Origin: Oscillospiraceae bacterium
Lineage (GTDB): Bacteria > Bacillota > Clostridia > Oscillospirales > Oscillospiraceae
Assembly: GCA_022795905.1 (NCBI GenBank)
Contig: JAAWHO010000002.1
Coordinates: forward strand, 1-45,095
Length of the DNA: 45,095 nt
Direction: 5' to 3'
The notes beneath the pieces are model-generated. The model was not told the DNA's origin. It did no database searches and saw nothing but the letters and a program-made list of their open reading frames with translations. The first letter of the stretch is position 1, and every line of letters begins with the position of its first letter. Shown here piece after piece: positions 306 to 12,128 of this stretch. The translations under genes were made by a program, and so were the position numbers.

Positions 306-426
306 CGGGAATTGAGAGATACTGATAGCGGGGTCATTCCTCGTGTACCTTGACAATCTATCTCTCCTGCGCATTGATTACGTCTTTTGTCCCAGAGATT
401 ATATGAATGAAAGGACGGATCAGTGC

Positions 427-2028
427 ATGGAAAACCGTGTTTATTGCCTTTACAGAGTGTCCACCGACAAGCAGGTGGACTACAACGACAAGAGCCAGGC
501 TGACATCCCTATGCAGAGAAAAGCCTGCCACCGCTTCGCGGAGGAAAAGGGCTGGACCATTATTCACGAGGAACAGGAAGATGGCGTGTCCGGCCATAAG
601 GTCAGAGCTGAGAACCGGGACAAGCTCCAAATCATCAAGGAACACGCCCGCCAGGGGAAGTTCGACATCCTGCTGGTGTTCATGTTTGACCGCATTGGCC
701 GTATCGCAGACGAGACCCCCTTTGTAGTGGAGTGGTTCGTCAAGAACGGCGTACAGGTTTGGAGCACACAGGAGGGGGAGCAGAGGTTTGACAATCATAC
801 CGACAAGCTCACCAATTACATCCGCTTCTGGCAGGCTGACGGTGAGAGCGAAAAGACCTCTATCCGCACCAAAACGGCCCTGGGTCAGTTGGTAGAGGAC
901 GGCGGCTTTAAGGGGGGAATGGCTCCCTATGGCTACGATCTCGTAAAAAACGGGCGGATGAATAAGCGTAAGCATGAACTGTACGAGTTAGCGGTGAATG
1001 AGGCCGAGGCCGCTGTTGTGCGTATCATCTTTGAGAAATACGTCAACGAGGGCTTTGGAGCACAGCGGATCGCCACCTACTTGAACCGTCTGGGCTACCG
1101 AGCCAGGACGGGCAAGAACTGGCATCACGCCACCATTCGGGGTATCATCTGCAACTTGACCTATACTGGTGTTCTGCGCAGTGGCGAGAGCCGTTCCCAG
1201 GTGCTGCCGTATCTACAACTGATTTCACAGGAAATGTTCGATTCCGCACAGCGTATCCGCACGTCTCGTGCCAATGCCGCTGAACAGGACAGGACCGTCC
1301 CCCGGAACATCGGTGGACAGTCCCTTTTGTCGGGCAATGTATTCTGTGGCCACTGCGGGGCGCGGCTGGCACTTACGACTAATGGAAAAGCCTATCCCTG
1401 CGCAGAGGACCCGAACCGGGTCGTGAAGCGTGTCCGCTATATCTGCTATGGCAAGACCCGCAAGCAGACGGAGTGTGATGGACAGACCGGCTACACAGCC
1501 CATATCCTGGATGGTATCATCGACAAAGTAATACGGCAAATCTTTGAGCGGATGAAATCCGTTCCCAAGAGTGAAATCGTCAATGCCCGGTATCGGGATA
1601 AAATGGAGGAGCGGAAGCTGCTGCTCCAGTCCATCCGGGCTGAACACGCGAAAGCCGCCGCAGAATTGGATATGCTGAAAGCAGAAATCATCCAGGTCCT
1701 GCGAGGCGAGAGTACCTTTTCCAAGGAACTGTTGAGCGGCATGGTATCTGAGGCTGAGGCTAAAGCCGCCGCGCTGCAAAAACAGCTTACCACCGCTCAG
1801 ACTGCCTACAATGAGGGACAAGCTGTCCTAAATGCCCTCAACGCACAGTATGATGACATCATCTCCTGGGCGGATATGTACGACCAAGCAAACCTGGAAG
1901 CGAAAAAAATGATTGTCAACTGCCTGATTAAGCGGGTAGAAGTCTGTCGGGACTACAAACTGCATATCGACTTCAATATCGACCTGGAGCAGTTCAGTCT
2001 CGGAATGGATGTGACAGTTGCAGCATAA
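427..2028 (+). CDS. Large serine recombinase (resolvase catalytic domain + recombinase domain + zinc ribbon + coiled coil)
   Basis: ORF 343..2028; internal ATG at 427 (MENRVYCLYRVSTDKQ...) preferred. Motifs YRVSTDKQ, GVSGHKVRAENRDKLQ, FDRIGR, CGHCGARL zinc ribbon, C-terminal coiled coil. Confidence 0.9.
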   Translation: MENRVYCLYRVSTDKQVDYNDKSQADIPMQRKACHRFAEEKGWTIIHEEQEDGVSGHKVRAENRDKLQIIKEHARQGKFDILLVFMFDRIGRIADETPFVVEWFVKNGVQVWSTQEGEQRFDNHTDKLTNYIRFWQADGESEKTSIRTKTALGQLVEDGGFKGGMAPYGYDLVKNGRMNKRKHELYELAVNEAEAAVVRIIFEKYVNEGFGAQRIATYLNRLGYRARTGKNWHHATIRGIICNLTYTGVLRSGESRSQVLPYLQLISQEMFDSAQRIRTSRANAAEQDRTVPRNIGGQSLLSGNVFCGHCGARLALTTNGKAYPCAEDPNRVVKRVRYICYGKTRKQTECDGQTGYTAHILDGIIDKVIRQIFERMKSVPKSEIVNARYRDKMEERKLLLQSIRAEHAKAAAELDMLKAEIIQVLRGESTFSKELLSGMVSEAEAKAAALQKQLTTAQTAYNEGQAVLNALNAQYDDIISWADMYDQANLEAKKMIVNCLIKRVEVCRDYKLHIDFNIDLEQFSLGMDVTVAA

Positions 2029-2485: not shown

Positions 2486-3715
2486 TCACTCCCGCAGCAC
2501 TGCCACAAATTGGATCACGCCCTCCGCCGGACACTCCGCCCGGATAGTCCCCTTATGGGCCTCCACAATCCCCCTGACGATGGACAGCCCCACACCGAAG
2601 CCCCCGGTCTGCTTGGACCGGGAGCGGTCCGGCCGGTAGAAGCGGTCAAAAAGCCTGTCCAGCTCCGCCGTGTCCAGCCCGGCACAGGGATTGGACACTA
2701 TGAGCACCGGCCCCTTTTTCGACTTCTCCAGCGCAAGATGGATCACACTGCCCTCGTCGGCATATTTGACGGCGTTGTCCAGCAGAACCGACACCAGCTG
2801 CCGGATTGCGTACTCATCTCCGCAGCAGGAGAGGCCGGGGGCGGCGTCCGCCTCCAGCGCGTGCCCCCTGACGGCGGCAAAGTCCCGGAAGGACTCCGCC
2901 GTCTCCGTCACCACGCCGCTGATATCGAATCTGGCAAACCGTGCAGGCGGCTTCTCCTCGTCCAGCCGGGCCAGCGTGACCAGATCGTTCACCAGCTCCG
3001 ACAGTTTCTCCGTCTGGGCCTGGGCCTTGCCGATCCACTTCTGCTCCCCCACCTCCATCTCCAGTACCTTCAGGCTGGTGGCGATGACTGTCAGCGGCGT
3101 TTTCAGCTCATGGCTGGCGTCTGTAATAAACTGCTTTTGCTTTTCCACGCTCCTCACGGTGGGCTCGATGGCCTTTTTGGAGAAGAACCAAATCAGGAGA
3201 TAGACCAGGGCCACGCAGGCCGCCGCCACCAAAAGGGAGATAACCGCGAAGGTCCGCATGGAATGCAGCTCCCGCTGGCAGTCCAGAAAGACGGCCATAT
3301 ATCGGTCCTCCCCAGCGCGGATTACATAATATTTGTACTGCTCCCTGTACCCCATACCCTCCCCCCGGCCCAAGGCGGCGGCCAGGAAGCGGCCCGTGTC
3401 TTCCTCCGTGACAGCGGCGATATGCCGCATATCGGCCATATCCAGCGTGCCGTCTCCGCTGTAGTACAGCACGAAGTACCGGGTGGAATAGGGCGTCTCC
3501 GGCGTGAACTGCCCCCGGGGCGGCTGCCCCGGCCTCCCGCCGGGGAACTGGGGGATCATGCCCTGGTTGTCGCAGATCATCCGCAGGGTGTCCCCCAGGG
3601 TCTGGTCCGTGGACAGGAAATTGAACACGTTGATGGACAGGGCCATCAGAAGCACCACCAGGGTGACGGAGATCATGGCAATGACGATAAACTGGCGGCG
3701 CAGTCTGTTGATCAT
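2486..3715 (-). CDS. Membrane sensor histidine kinase
   Basis: ORF 2486..3961 trimmed to MINRLRRQF at 3715; TM segments, DASHELKTPLT H-box, N and G boxes; 4-bp overlap with the response regulator. Confidence 0.93.
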   Translation of the reverse strand: MINRLRRQFIVIAMISVTLVVLLMALSINVFNFLSTDQTLGDTLRMICDNQGMIPQFPGGRPGQPPRGQFTPETPYSTRYFVLYYSGDGTLDMADMRHIAAVTEEDTGRFLAAALGRGEGMGYREQYKYYVIRAGEDRYMAVFLDCQRELHSMRTFAVISLLVAAACVALVYLLIWFFSKKAIEPTVRSVEKQKQFITDASHELKTPLTVIATSLKVLEMEVGEQKWIGKAQAQTEKLSELVNDLVTLARLDEEKPPARFARFDISGVVTETAESFRDFAAVRGHALEADAAPGLSCCGDEYAIRQLVSVLLDNAVKYADEGSVIHLALEKSKKGPVLIVSNPCAGLDTAELDRLFDRFYRPDRSRSKQTGGFGVGLSIVRGIVEAHKGTIRAECPAEGVIQFVAVLRE

Positions 3716-4386
3716 CCCGCGTCCTCCAGGGAGTACCCCAGCCCCCGGCTGGCGCGGATGACGGCGGAGGCCCCCACGCCGGCCAGCTTCTTGCGCAAAT
3801 TGGAGATGTGGACCCACACCACGTTGATCTCCGCCTCTGCGTCCCAGCCCCACACCCGCTCCATAATTCGCTCCGCCGAGAGGATCACCCTGGGGGAGCG
3901 CATGAACAGCTCCATAACCTGGAACTCCCGGGCGCTGAGCCGCTCCGTCCGCTCCCCGCACCGGAGGGCGCCTGTCCCGCAGTCCAGCTCCAGGCCGCCG
4001 AAGCGGAGCACCGCAGGCTTGTAGTCCTCTGTCCGCCGCAGCATGGCCCGCACCCGGGCCAGCAGTTCATCTGGAGCAAAGGGCTTGGGCAGGTAGTCAT
4101 CCGCGCCGGAGTTGAATCCCGCCACCCGGTCGTCCTTCTCCCCTCTTGCCGTCAGCAGCATGACGGGCGTGGAGACGCCGCCCTCCCGCAGCCGGGTCAG
4201 CACCTGGAGACCGTCCAGCTTGGGCATCATAATATCCAGGATAATGGCGTCATAGCCGCCCGTGCCGGCGTAATCCAGGGCCGTCCTCCCGTCGTGGACC
4301 GCCTCCACGGTATACTGATTCTTCTCCAGGAACACGGTCAGAGCCTCCGCCAGGTCCAGATCGTCCTCCGCAATTAAAAGGCGCAA
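3712..4386 (-). CDS. OmpR/PhoB-family response regulator
   Basis: MRLLIAEDDLDLAEALTVFL receiver with LDIMMPKLDG, C-terminal winged helix (SAREFQVMELFMRSP...VHISNLRKKL). Confidence 0.95.
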   Translation of the reverse strand: MRLLIAEDDLDLAEALTVFLEKNQYTVEAVHDGRTALDYAGTGGYDAIILDIMMPKLDGLQVLTRLREGGVSTPVMLLTARGEKDDRVAGFNSGADDYLPKPFAPDELLARVRAMLRRTEDYKPAVLRFGGLELDCGTGALRCGERTERLSAREFQVMELFMRSPRVILSAERIMERVWGWDAEAEINVVWVHISNLRKKLAGVGASAVIRASRGLGYSLEDAG

Positions 4387-4412: not shown

Positions 4413-4441
4413 ATTATAAGGCAGACGCCGGAGAACCGCAA
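4413..4441 (-). promoter_or_regulatory. Putative promoter of the response regulator / kinase pair
   Basis: Minus strand TTGCGG-N17-TATAAT; the -35 lies in the loop of the hairpin at 4420-4460. Confidence 0.6.
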
Positions 4442-4460
4442 CTGTTTTCCGGCGTCTGCC
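4420..4460 (-). terminator. 13-bp perfect hairpin after the DUF4956 gene (probable terminator)
   Basis: GGCAGACGCCGGA (4420-4432) / TCCGGCGTCTGCC (4448-4460). Confidence 0.55.
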
Positions 4461-5867: not shown

Positions 5868-5913
5868 AAATGAACCCCCTTGCTGTTTTCTTGGGACAGC
5901 ATACAGGCTCTTC

Positions 5914-5930
5914 CTAAAGGGAAGCTAAAG
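5914..5930 (-). promoter_or_regulatory. Direct-repeat box CTTTAG-N5-CTTTAG (minus orientation) upstream of the VTC gene
   Basis: Plus strand CTAAAGGGAAGCTAAAG; 11-bp period; second repeat starts 16 nt before the -10-like TATGCT (5903-5898). Confidence 0.65.
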
Positions 5931-5982
5931 ATCCGGCCCGAGGGCGTGAATATTTTGTAAACTCCCCGGAGCCGTCCCCCGC

Positions 5983-5999
5983 CTTTAGGTGCCCTTTAG
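5983..5999 (+). promoter_or_regulatory. Direct-repeat box CTTTAG-N5-CTTTAG (plus orientation) upstream of the DUF4353 gene
   Basis: CTTTAGGTGCCCTTTAG; 11-bp period; second repeat starts 16 nt before the -10-like TATAAA (6010-6015). Confidence 0.7.
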
Positions 6000-6058
6000 G
6001 TTTGCCGGATATAAATAGCGCAGTCCACGGGACAAAAAGCCACAAGGAGGTTTTCCAT

Positions 6059-8044
6059 ATGAAATATCCCAAGCGATGGACCGTGCCGCTCCTCTGCGCG
6101 GCCATGCTGCTCTCCGCCTGCGGGGCGGAGAGCGCCGAGACGGAGGGCATCCGCGGCACTTCCGGAGAGACGCCGGCGGAGCTCTCGGGCGCCGCCGAAA
6201 CGGAGGCGCGGACTCCCGCCGGCCTGGACCTGGCGGGGGCCACAGTCATCACTCTCTCCGGCAGCGGCGCTTCCATAGAGGGCGCGGGCGCGTCGGCAGA
6301 GGGCGGCGTCGTCACCATCACCGCCGCCGGCACCTACGCGGTCAGCGGCTCCCTGACGGACGGCCGCATCATCGTCAACGCCCCCGAGGAGGACGTGACG
6401 GTGGCGCTCAGCGGCGCGGACATCACCTGCTCTTACGGCAGCCCTCTGTACATCTATAAGGCCGGCACAGCCGCCGTGCACCTGGCGGAGGGGACGGAAA
6501 ACGCCCTGGCGGACGGCACAAGCTACACCTACGCCGACGAATACTCCTCGGCGGCGGACGAGGAGCCCAACGCCTGCCTGTACAGCAAGGCGGACCTGGT
6601 CATTGAGGGCGCGGGGAGCCTGACGGTGACGGCCAACTTCGACAACGGCATCACCAGCAAGGATACCCTTCAGATTTACGACAGCCGCATCTCGGTCACC
6701 GCGGTCAACAACGGCATCAACGGCAGGGACTCCAACACCATTGACAGCGCGTCTGTCACCGTGTCCTGCGGCGGCGACGCCATCCGCTCCACCAACGACA
6801 CGGACGGGACCCCGGGCTGGGTCAGCGTGTCCAACACCGTGCTGGAGCTGACCGCCGGGGAGGACGGCATCCAGGCGGAAACCGCCCTGGCCATGTCCGA
6901 TGGCAGCTATACGATTACCTCCGGCGGCGGCAGCGGCGTCCAGCCCACCGATGATATCAGCGCCAAGGGCCTCAAGGCGGGAACGTCGCTGACCCTGACC
7001 GGCGGGACCTACACCCTGGACTGCTCCGACGACGCGGTCCACTCCAACGGGGACGTGACGGTGACCGGCGGCAGCTATGTCATTTCCACCGGAGACGACG
7101 CCCTCCATGCCGATGAGGCCCTGGCGGTCTCCGGCGGGGAGCTCGACATTCTGACCTCCTACGAAGGCCTGGAGGGCACCTCCGTGACGATATCCGGCGG
7201 AACCATCCGCATTGTGTCCTCTGACGACGGGGTAAACGCGGCGGGGGGCGCGGACGGCAGCGGCTTCGGCGGCTTTGGCCGGGGGAACGCCTTCGGCGGA
7301 AGCTCCGACGCGTTTATGGAGATATCCGGCGGGTATCTGGTGGTGAAAGCCGGCGGCGACGGGCTGGACTCCAACGGGTCGATCACCATGTCCGGCGGCA
7401 CCGCCATTGTGTGCAGCACCGGCCAAGGCGACGGCGCCCTGGATTCCGACGGCTCCTTTGCCCTCACCGGCGGCACGCTGCTGGCGGTGGACAGCGGCGG
7501 AATGTCCCGGGTCCCCGACCGGGCGGAGCAGTATACGGTCGCCCTGGGGACAGGCGGGGTCCTGCCCGCCGGGACTCTCATGAGCCTGGAGGGCGATGGG
7601 CAGAGGATTGTCTTTCAGCTGCCGGTTGACGGGAGCTGCATCGTGTATTCCTCCCCGGAGCTTGCGGGGGGAGGCGCCTGCACCGTCTCCTATGGCGGCG
7701 ATTACAGCGGCGAGTCCGCTGACGGCCTCTGCTCCGGCGGCGTCTATTCCGGCGGCACGGAGCTGGCGGAGCTGACGCTGACAGACTATGTTACCACCTA
7801 TGGGAGCCTCGGTATGGGCGGACGGCCCGGCGGGAGCATGGGCGGCAGGCCAGACGATGCAATGGGCGGCGCGCCCCGGGGCGGCAGGGACGGCCTGCCG
7901 GCAGGGGACGGGGACTTCGCGGCTCCCCCCGACGGCGAGCCCCCTGAAAGCGGCGGTATGCAGGGCGGCCCGCAGGACCGGAGCGGCCGGGAAGGCCCTC
8001 CGTCGGAAAAGGGAGCGGGCCCGGGAGAGCCCTCCGGCGCATGA
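6059..8044 (+). CDS. Secreted DUF4353-type carbohydrate-binding-domain repeat lipoprotein
   Basis: ORF 6002..8044 trimmed to ATG 6059 after AAGGAGG; lipobox-like LLSACGAES; repeats GGTYTLDCSDDAVHSNGD / GGSYVISTGDDALHADEA; Gly-rich C-terminal tail. Confidence 0.85.
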   Translation: MKYPKRWTVPLLCAAMLLSACGAESAETEGIRGTSGETPAELSGAAETEARTPAGLDLAGATVITLSGSGASIEGAGASAEGGVVTITAAGTYAVSGSLTDGRIIVNAPEEDVTVALSGADITCSYGSPLYIYKAGTAAVHLAEGTENALADGTSYTYADEYSSAADEEPNACLYSKADLVIEGAGSLTVTANFDNGITSKDTLQIYDSRISVTAVNNGINGRDSNTIDSASVTVSCGGDAIRSTNDTDGTPGWVSVSNTVLELTAGEDGIQAETALAMSDGSYTITSGGGSGVQPTDDISAKGLKAGTSLTLTGGTYTLDCSDDAVHSNGDVTVTGGSYVISTGDDALHADEALAVSGGELDILTSYEGLEGTSVTISGGTIRIVSSDDGVNAAGGADGSGFGGFGRGNAFGGSSDAFMEISGGYLVVKAGGDGLDSNGSITMSGGTAIVCSTGQGDGALDSDGSFALTGGTLLAVDSGGMSRVPDRAEQYTVALGTGGVLPAGTLMSLEGDGQRIVFQLPVDGSCIVYSSPELAGGGACTVSYGGDYSGESADGLCSGGVYSGGTELAELTLTDYVTTYGSLGMGGRPGGSMGGRPDDAMGGAPRGGRDGLPAGDGDFAAPPDGEPPESGGMQGGPQDRSGREGPPSEKGAGPGEPSGA

Positions 8045-8772: not shown

Positions 8773-10485
8773 TCACAGCTCCCGCATCAGGTGGAAGCTC
8801 CGCATCAGCTGCACGGAGCCGTAGCCCCACTGGTTGTTGGGGTAACTCATGTCGTCCCGGCGGAGGCAGCCCCGGATGAGGTAGGCCCGGACCTGATATG
8901 TCCCCATGGACGGGTCGTTGCCCTCCCGAACGCCCCACTGGAGCAGGAGGGCGCAGATGCCCGCCAGCACCGCCGCCGCCGCGCTGGTGCCGCTCATGAG
9001 GCCGGGGCCGTAGGGGTAGATACCCCGGACTCCCACGCCGGGGGCCACCAGGTCCGGCAGCATCCGGCCGTCCCAGGCCGGGCCCCGGGAGGACTTGGCG
9101 TACAGGCTCTTCCCCGCGCTGTCGTAGGCCCCGCAGCAGATGAGCCCCACGGCGGAGGCGGGGCTGGTGATGGTACATTCCGGCGTGGCCGCCAGGAACT
9201 CCACCGTAGGCGAGACAAAGCCCGTCATGGGCAGCCACACCTGGTACTGTCCGTTGAGCACGATGTCCCCGTGGAGCTGGATGGTCCACACCCCCGGCGT
9301 GATCCCCAGAATCCGGATGACCGACAGCTGCCCCCCGCTGCCCTCCACCGGGAAGTGGTATTCAATCTGCACCCGGGCCGCCTCCAGCACCAGCTTTACG
9401 TCGGCTGCGGGGGACGCCCCGGGCCGGGCGGGCACCCGGCCCACCAGCTCCCCGGAGGGGGAGCGCACCGACAGGGAGATCCGGTCTGCCACGGTGTTCC
9501 AAACCGCCAGGTACACGTCCCCCGCGTTCTCACCCGCCTTCAGGTCGATCTGCGCCGGCTTCTCCCCGGGCTGAAGGACGCCGCTGGTGTGGTGCCGGGC
9601 CTCCGCCTCGTTGCCCGCCGCCGCGCACAGGCACACCCCCTTCTGGATGGACACGCCCCCCAGGTACTCCTCAAAGACACTGTACCCGTTGTGGCTCCCG
9701 GCGTTGGTGCCCAGGCCGATGCAGATGGCCACCGGGCGGCCCAGCTCCCGGGCCTTGCGGAGGATGTACTCCACCCCCAGCATGACCGCGCTGGACTCAT
9801 AGGCGTACTCCTGGTCCGCCGGGACGCAGTACTTCTCCCGGTAAAAGGGCCGGGCCTTTTTCAGCTTCACGGCGATGATCTCCGCATCCGGGGCCACGCC
9901 GGAGAAGTCCTCCGTCTGCTTCCCGGCGGCCACCGAGGCCAGAAAGGTGCCGTGGCCCGACTCGTCCCGCGCCGGCACCAGGGAGTAGGGGTCCTCCGAG
10001 GCCAGGGCCGCGTCGAGCTCCGCCTTGCTGTACTCCCGGCCCAGGAGGAAGCCGGGGGGTGGGTCCCCCTCGGCAGTCTGGTCATAGATGTACTGGATCC
10101 GGCTGCTGCCGTCGGCGTAGCGGAAGATATCCTGGGTGTAGTCGATGCCGGTATCCACAAAGCCCAGCAGCACGCCCCGGCCCTTCAGGCTCAGGTAGGG
10201 CTGGCTGTGGACCTGGGAGACCCCCGACGCCTCCAGGGCCGGCCGGTCCAGCAGCCCCAGGACCACGGAGGCCGAGCTGACGAAGGCCGCGCCCAGCGCC
10301 TCCTCCAGCCGGTGGAAATTTTCCGCCTTCACATACCCCAGGACATAGCGCCCCGAGAGCAGCTGCCCCACCACCACCTCGTCGGAACTGTGGGCATAGT
10401 CGAAAAAGGCGTCGGTGGCCCGGGTGACGAAGTCCACGGTGTCCGGCGCGTGGATGAATGTCAGCATCTCCGGCGACAGGCGCAT
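8773..10485 (-). CDS. S8 subtilisin-like protease, Csp (germination protease)-like
   Basis: Intact triad motifs GFVDTGID, SGHGTFLAS, MSGTSAAAAV; Csp-like spacing and inserted domain. Confidence 0.85.
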   Translation of the reverse strand: MRLSPEMLTFIHAPDTVDFVTRATDAFFDYAHSSDEVVVGQLLSGRYVLGYVKAENFHRLEEALGAAFVSSASVVLGLLDRPALEASGVSQVHSQPYLSLKGRGVLLGFVDTGIDYTQDIFRYADGSSRIQYIYDQTAEGDPPPGFLLGREYSKAELDAALASEDPYSLVPARDESGHGTFLASVAAGKQTEDFSGVAPDAEIIAVKLKKARPFYREKYCVPADQEYAYESSAVMLGVEYILRKARELGRPVAICIGLGTNAGSHNGYSVFEEYLGGVSIQKGVCLCAAAGNEAEARHHTSGVLQPGEKPAQIDLKAGENAGDVYLAVWNTVADRISLSVRSPSGELVGRVPARPGASPAADVKLVLEAARVQIEYHFPVEGSGGQLSVIRILGITPGVWTIQLHGDIVLNGQYQVWLPMTGFVSPTVEFLAATPECTITSPASAVGLICCGAYDSAGKSLYAKSSRGPAWDGRMLPDLVAPGVGVRGIYPYGPGLMSGTSAAAAVLAGICALLLQWGVREGNDPSMGTYQVRAYLIRGCLRRDDMSYPNNQWGYGSVQLMRSFHLMREL

Positions 10486-10486
10486 A

Positions 10487-12043
10487 TCAGAGCCCCCTTT
10501 CCAGCTGGTTGACCAGCTCGTTCATCGTTCCGCACAGGTTCAGCCGCCCGTAGCCCCACTGGGGGTTGGGATAGGCCATGAAGGGGCTGCGGACCGCGCC
10601 CTTGCACAGAAACGCCTTCACCCGCTGGTTGTAGAGCAGCAGGTCGTTTCCCTGGACGATGCCCCACTCCATCATCAGCGCCGCCGCCCCGGAGACGAAG
10701 GGGGCGGCCATGCTGGTGCCGGTGAACACGTCGTAGCCGCCCCCGGCCCTGGCGGAGCGGACGCCCTCCGCCGGGGCCGTGATGTCCAGCAGGGACCGGC
10801 CCGCACAGTCCTGGACGCCCCGCCCGGAGAAGGGGCTGATGGTCTCCGTGTCCGGCCGGAAGCCCCCCACGGAGATGGGGTAGAGGGCCGTGGCCGGGAG
10901 GGTGATGGTCAGGTCCGGCTCCGGCTGGAGAAAGGCGGTGCGGTCGGTGACCTCCTCCATGGTGGGCAGCCAGACGTTGAAGCGCCCGTCGGAGACCCGC
11001 CGCCCGTGGCAGCGCAGCCTCCACAGGCCGTCCAGCCCCCCGGCGGGGGCCTCCAGGAGCATCAGCACCTCCTGGGAGGTGCTGTAGTGGGTGGGGACGC
11101 CGTAGAGCACCGACACCCGGACGGCCCCGAAGCGGAGGGACCGGGCCCCCTCCGTCAGCGGCCCGGTGCTCTGCCCGCTGGGCAGGACCAGCTCAAAGGC
11201 CGCCTCGTCGGCGAAGCTCTTCCACAGGGACAGACAGACCTGCTCCCGCCGGGTGGAGACGGTGAACTCCGCGTCCACGGCGCCCCCCTCCGTCAGCCGC
11301 CCCTGGAAGTGGTGGGCGCCGCTGCCCTCGTTTCCGGCGGCGCAGACCACTACGCTCCTCCCCCGTTGGGCGGACTGGTCGATGTAGGACTCAAAGAGGG
11401 TATGTCCCCAGTGGGAGCCGCAGTTGGTGCCGTAGCTGAGGTTGACGACGCAGGGCATCCCCCGCTCCTCCGCCTGGTCCAGCAGGAACTTGACGGCCCG
11501 CATGACGTCCGTGGTCCGGGAGCTGGCCAGCTTCACCGCCGCGATGGACGCGCCGGGGGCCACGCCGCTCCTCCCTGCGGCGATGGCGGCCACGGCGGTG
11601 CCGTGGCCGGACTGGTCCGCAGAGGAGACCAGCCCGGCGGCGATCTCCGCCCCGGAGAACACCGCCCCCTGGCGGAAGCCCTCCGGCGGCGTCCCCTCCG
11701 CCGTCATGTCCCAGAGGGCGGCTACCCGGCTGCTCCCGTCCTCCCGCTGGAACTCCGGGTGGGTCAGGTCCAGCCCTGAGTCCACAAATCCGATGAGCAC
11801 CCCCTCCCCCGTCAGCCCCAGCCCGGTCTCCCGCTGGACCGGCGGGACGCAGGCCGCCTCCATGCTCCGGTCCACGAAGCAGCTCAGCCGTCTGGCCGGC
11901 TCAAAGCAGGTCACCTGGCGGTGCGCCAGCAGCCCCTCCGCGGACTGCTCCCCCAGCTCCATGATGGCAAACTGCGCGTCCAGCAGCTCGGTGGGGTAGT
12001 CCAGGGAGAGGATATCGCCTGTATACTTGATGATGTACTCCAT
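10487..12043 (-). CDS. S8 subtilisin-like protease, Csp (germination protease)-like
   Basis: ORF 10487..12097 trimmed to MEYIIKYTGD; intact triad motifs GFVDSGLD, SGHGTAVAA, TGTSMAAPFVSG. Confidence 0.87.
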   Translation of the reverse strand: MEYIIKYTGDILSLDYPTELLDAQFAIMELGEQSAEGLLAHRQVTCFEPARRLSCFVDRSMEAACVPPVQRETGLGLTGEGVLIGFVDSGLDLTHPEFQREDGSSRVAALWDMTAEGTPPEGFRQGAVFSGAEIAAGLVSSADQSGHGTAVAAIAAGRSGVAPGASIAAVKLASSRTTDVMRAVKFLLDQAEERGMPCVVNLSYGTNCGSHWGHTLFESYIDQSAQRGRSVVVCAAGNEGSGAHHFQGRLTEGGAVDAEFTVSTRREQVCLSLWKSFADEAAFELVLPSGQSTGPLTEGARSLRFGAVRVSVLYGVPTHYSTSQEVLMLLEAPAGGLDGLWRLRCHGRRVSDGRFNVWLPTMEEVTDRTAFLQPEPDLTITLPATALYPISVGGFRPDTETISPFSGRGVQDCAGRSLLDITAPAEGVRSARAGGGYDVFTGTSMAAPFVSGAAALMMEWGIVQGNDLLLYNQRVKAFLCKGAVRSPFMAYPNPQWGYGRLNLCGTMNELVNQLERGL

Positions 12044-12128
12044 ATCGGCCTCCCGTCCTCTTGCGGCTGGGCGGAGCCGGACCGGCCCCGCCCGCATAGG
12101 ATAGTATACGGAAAGGAGGACTGCCGTT

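Follow-up and report, generated by a model that had tools for sequence, protein, structure and literature searches.

The window, as we call the whole stretch of 45,095 nt that was analyzed, contains on its minus strand, as judged by domain matches, the genes of a VTC-domain (polyphosphate-polymerase-like) protein (PF09359; 5127–5867), a DUF4956 membrane protein (PF16316; 4469–5134), an OmpR-family response regulator (RR; Response_reg plus Trans_reg_C; 3712–4386), and a sensor histidine kinase (HK; HisKA plus HATPase_c; 2486–3715). The recognition helix of the RR is INVVWVHISNLRKKL, and this protein is the presumed ligand of both of the DNA boxes considered below. On the plus strand, positions 6059–8044 encode a predicted secreted protein of the Cthe_2159 carbohydrate-binding type (PF14262, formerly DUF4353), which proteins form a beta-helix and bind cellulose and polygalacturonate (PMC6712302). 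The original prediction, which had placed an OmpR-family regulator at 3712–4386 and had named the VTC and DUF4353 genes as flanking the boxes, was thus correct in its description of the locus. As the simplest guess, the module may act at the cell surface or in envelope stress. A large serine recombinase (Resolvase, Recombinase, Zn_ribbon_recom) is encoded close to the HK gene at 343–2028 (plus strand) and possibly marks the edge of a mobile element; and two adjacent long ORFs at 8773–12097 (minus strand) resemble, as judged by eye, subtilisin-family (S8) proteases.

Boxes and promoters of the divergent region

Between the VTC and Cthe_2159 genes, two perfect direct repeats of the form CTTTAG-N5-CTTTAG were found. 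Upstream of VTC, the minus strand carries CTTTAGCTTCCCTTTAG (CTTTAG-CTTCC-CTTTAG) at 5930–5914, with half-sites at 5930–5925 and 5919–5914, which box is kept in orthologous loci; upstream of the Cthe_2159 gene, the plus strand carries CTTTAGGTGCCCTTTAG (CTTTAG-GTGCC-CTTTAG) at 5983–5999, with half-sites at 5983–5988 and 5994–5999. The second half-sites start at 5919 (minus) and 5994 (plus), in each instance exactly 16 nt before the start of a -10 hexamer: TATGCT at 5903–5898 (minus) for the VTC-DUF4956 promoter and TATAAA at 6010–6015 (plus) for the Cthe_2159 promoter, both with the same offset as in the conserved sites. Both the repeats and the hexamers are therefore exactly where they had been predicted. 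The further statement that the repeats sit at the -35 position needed amendment: since the half-sites begin 27 and 16 nt ahead of the -10 start and the place of a -35 hexamer is at 23 nt, the repeats do overlap the -35 region, but the half-sites straddle that place and are not themselves -35 hexamers. A sigma-70 scan of this intergenic region found no promoter, which result is consistent with the absence of a -35 element. Upon alignment of the 38 box sites described below, a CA was conserved at box positions 39–40 and is likely the start site, so that the transcripts are predicted to begin at about 5891 for VTC (5890–5892, minus strand) and at about 6022 for Cthe_2159 (6021–6023, plus strand).

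With up to two mismatches allowed, the only matches in the window were those two boxes, both having 0 mismatches, with 0.81 matches expected upon shuffling; and in the draft genome of 1,733,833 bases exact matches were restricted to the two window copies, a copy with 1 mismatch occurring at one other place. Between the boxes lies a second element of 11-bp period, TTTACA-AAATA-TTCACG (5945–5961, minus strand), that was partly conserved, in the closest relatives only. We take this pair to look like the PhoP/WalR-type sites of Firmicutes, and the element may be an UP-element or the site of a second regulator. In the closest relatives its TTCAC/TTAC part precedes the VTC box by 20 nt, and a short A/T tract occupies its place in distant relatives.

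The RR-HK genes, for their part, are preceded by a box-independent promoter, TTGCGG-N17-TATAAT (4413–4441, minus strand; hexamers at 4441–4436 and 4418–4413). In the loci bearing the box, the corresponding position mostly had a TATAAT with a TTG-type -35 located 17–18 nt upstream, which pattern points to a conserved, CTTTAG-independent promoter of the sigma-A type. Given this conserved promoter, the whole operon need not be simply co-regulated, and the claim of a full autoregulation is weakened. A GC-rich hairpin without a T-run (4420–4460, minus strand), located between DUF4956 and the RR gene, may in addition dampen read-through into RR-HK and thereby the feedback.

Conservation and genome-wide distribution of the box

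We gathered about 90 VTC loci by genome search plus a search of GTDB contigs and scanned them for CTTTAG-N5-CTTTAG, an RR being assigned to the window type (class A) if its phmmer score exceeded 300 bits. The box was present in all 17 loci in which a window-type RR lay downstream (16/16 without the window) and in none of the 15 with other RRs (Fisher 1.8e-9, a value that ignores phylogeny). With the exception of a single locus (L042), the box occurred upstream of VTC only where a window-type RR trails VTC-DUF4956 or where the contig stops before the RR position; and a second copy usually faced the divergent Cthe_2159 gene. Conservation, which had been set beforehand as a test capable of refuting the prediction, thus spoke in its favor, in that the box was kept on both sides wherever this type of RR was linked. 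The exceptional locus has a box with 1 mismatch at L042:2917, upstream of VTC and with a -10 at 16 nt, and neither an RR, nor an HK, nor a Cthe_2159 gene was seen beside it on that contig.

From 38 sites in 19 loci we derived the consensus CTTTAG-(G/C)TTCN-CTTTAG-GTT, with some CTTAAG variants. In 37 of those 38 sites the -10 began 16 nt after the second half-site began, the similarity to a -35 element was at most 3/6 at every one of the 38 promoters, and the DNA between the boxes differed from locus to locus, with gaps of 6, 15, 42, 52–53, and 97 bp. No box with up to 1 mismatch occurred in the remainder of these 19 loci, which comprised 279,186 strand-positions beyond the intergenic regions. 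What places the box beyond chance is accordingly its conservation across loci rather than its count within a single window. In the VTC tree, the regulator classes tracked the clades (7 changes versus a minimum of 5) and the class-A loci were found in few clades, so that the independent events are far fewer than the loci.

The bare box pattern was not enriched genome-wide, yielding 35 matches in 18 genomes versus 29 for the reversed control; the box plus -10 pattern gave 35 matches in 19 genomes, 33 of them at this module, versus 4 for the reversed-pattern control. Only the position and the -10-extended pattern, then, discriminate the true boxes on a genomic scale. When 396 genomes of the order, with several OmpR RRs per genome, were scanned blind, an orthologue of the RR (at least 326 bits; the next best scored 263) was retrieved in 4 of them; and the box plus -10 was present in 4/4 of these, always at this module, versus 4/392 of the others (Fisher 7e-8), two of these last four having sites that resemble MerR-type operators. 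The composite matches at L147 and L153 were rejected as members of the regulon, for they are MerR-like palindromes beside MerR-type ORFs: at L147:1501 and L153:591, CTTAAAGTTAACTTTA-type palindromes next to MerR-family-like ORFs imitate the box pattern. Those at L148, L152, and L158 may be the product of chance.

Association of the box with the regulator and its recognition helix

In one locus (L039) the Cthe_2159 gene sits downstream of the kinase, not divergently, and there has a box of its own; while in G259 the module is split, VTC and Cthe_2159 lying apart from DUF4956-RR-HK, with one box before VTC and a separate one before DUF4956-RR-HK. In G072 and G291, genes of related secreted repeat-type proteins (L145, L146) are likewise preceded, in trans, by a box whose -10 is perfectly spaced; and in G067 and G068 a CTTTAG box with a -10 at 16 nt lies ahead of a RelA_SpoT-domain gene, an RR gene being next in G068. 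In several genomes a gene of that domain, resembling a small alarmone synthetase, is located immediately 5' of an OmpR-type RR (L144:1908-3193; L196, L203). The regulon that emerged from the genome-wide motif scan proposed at the outset is small and mostly local, with trans targets in some relatives.

The core of the recognition helix, VWVHISNLRKK, was found in 17/17 class-A RRs of the VTC set. In three further loci with other VTC modules (L217, L218, L219) the RRs are only about 52% identical overall with VWVHISN(L/I)RKK kept, and the CTTTAG box is present with its -10 at 16 nt; and at L221 (G428) the box was predicted for the VTC promoter and then located there with one mismatch. The box is hence tied to the linked regulator, as anticipated: it follows the genes that have moved, and it tracks both the RR genome-wide and the recognition helix.

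Where the VTC module has another RR, the tandem hexamers of 11-bp period are different too—CTGAAA, TTTCGT, and TTCAAT—and their Fisher values are post hoc, the boxes having been derived from the very loci tested. The proposed pairs of hexamer and helix are CTTTAG with VWVHISN, CTGAAA with NNVEAYISF, TTTCGT with ATDDTVRRL, and TTCAAT with NNVEVYMTF. We would give even chances to the proposal that the VTC-DUF4956-Cthe_2159 module is served by at least four OmpR-type regulators, each with its own 11-bp tandem hexamer, the promoters having been rewired in step with the recognition helix; and the idea of repeated regulator swaps is tempered by the agreement of the regulator classes with the clades of the VTC tree. 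If true, the rewired module would supply naturally occurring data on the DNA-recognition code of the OmpR family, which code the paired changes of helix and box around a constant gene set would make testable.

Proposed switch and comparison with known systems

On these grounds we hold it highly probable that a tandem dimer of the linked, phosphorylated RR (3712–4386) occupies each box, across the -35 region, and that both divergent transcripts are thereby activated. Each CTTTAG-N5-CTTTAG would be one site for a head-to-tail dimer; after phosphorylation of the RR by the kinase (2486–3715), the dimer would take up the position where a -35 is lacking, 10 bp ahead of the -10, and would recruit RNA polymerase in a PhoB-like activation overlapping the -35. 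The VTC-DUF4956 and the secreted Cthe_2159 transcripts would in this manner be switched on together, and their genes presumably function together; the RR-HK genes would be expressed at a basal level from a -35/-10 promoter of their own, to which transcription that starts at the VTC promoter and reads through the hairpin may add a positive feedback. That the box promoters lack a -35 and that the RR-HK promoters mostly possess one fits with the need for an activator at VTC and Cthe_2159 and with a basal expression of RR-HK.

An opposite action of the same RR, which would bind the boxes and repress both genes through promoter occlusion, appears unlikely. The box does overlie the region contacted by the RNA polymerase, a repressor on a weak promoter would leave the same footprint, and OmpR-family RRs are able to repress, for which ability CiaR at manLMN provides a precedent (PMC8317062); but with a -35 similarity of no more than 3/6 in all the box promoters, their basal activity would be very weak if an activator were lacking, and the constant distance of 10 bp from box to -10 suits activation. 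Somewhat more improbable would be a recognition of the boxes by a regulator other than the linked RR, with its gene elsewhere in the genome, which possibility is suggested by the box at L042 on a contig with no RR and by the multiplicity of OmpR RRs per genome. The joint presence of RR orthologue and box in all 4 carriers among the 396 genomes argues against that attribution, as do the other boxes in the loci with other RRs and the agreement of helix with box, paralogues included. We give very little credence to CTTTAG as a -35 recognized by an alternative sigma factor, since 10 and 21 bp, and not 16–18 bp, separate the half-site ends from the -10, the -10 is an ordinary TATAnT, and both half-sites, 11 bp apart, are conserved, even though the spacing to the -10 is indeed fixed. 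Finally, chance repeats or a plain shared ancestry of the intergenic DNA count as already refuted: a shuffled window frequently yields a match at up to two mismatches, but diverged loci with wholly different spacers (gaps 6–97 bp) repeatedly have perfect copies at the same position and none elsewhere.

The activation by the linked RR that we favor has a well-known model in E. coli, where the tandem repeats of the pho box, bound by PhoB, replace the -35. RRs of the OmpR/PhoB family bind direct repeats as head-to-tail tandem dimers (PMC4832192), and PhoB boxes overlap the -35 (PMC3348028). The sites in the window have the following features of that family: a direct repeat with a period of about 11 bp, a -35 that is overlapped or replaced at a fixed distance from the -10, and a linked, co-occurring RR with receiver and winged-helix domains. 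The likeness to the pho box thus concerns the tandem-dimer direct repeats overlapping the -35 (PMC3348028), whereas the hexamer differs from CTTTAG; and the RR of the window is not a PhoB, having scored 175.6 bits versus the cut-off of 296.2 for NCBIfam TIGR02154. The closest known site is the streptococcal CiaR box, TTTAAG-N5-TTTAAG (PMC9603419, PMC8317062), likewise a 6-5-6 direct repeat of 11-bp period with a similar A/T-rich hexamer, recognized by an OmpR-family RR at activated promoters. In the window, however, the core is CTTTAG instead of TTTAAG, the regulon is small and mostly local, and the gene content is another; with the spacer consensus over the 38 sites written as CTTTAG-STTCN-CTTTAG, the boxes are not CiaR boxes by sequence. 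In a member of the same order (L201), an exact TTTAAG-N5-TTTAAG with a -10 at 16 nt was present upstream of a related RR whose helix is VWVYLSY. MerR-type operators, with the palindrome CTTAAAG-TTAA-CTTTAAG in the spacer, were discarded because the repeats of the window are direct and not inverted.

A literature search, which covered few subscription journals, retrieved no paper on CTTTAG with a response regulator and a direct repeat, nor any on a two-component system of VTC/DUF4956; the type of switch is well known, and the regulator appears to be undescribed, as do its DNA sequence and its targets. For a two-component system that occurs in Clostridia of gut and rumen, there is thus a defined candidate operator, a promoter geometry, and a small regulon, in which one proposed signal would link a polyphosphate-polymerase-like operon with a secreted protein of the carbohydrate-binding type. 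A comparable set of genes is SIR_1592-1594 of Streptococcus intermedius, beside the pel operon, encoding a polyphosphate-polymerase-domain protein, a membrane protein bearing an ACT domain at its C-terminus, and a CotH protein that is secreted (PMC12345266). That set differs in having CotH where the window has Cthe_2159, and the report on it mentions no two-component system; but it shares with the window the combination of polyphosphate-polymerase-domain, membrane, and secreted protein genes—the membrane proteins being matched by description—and two of its three genes affect aggregation and the level of Pel (PMC12345266).
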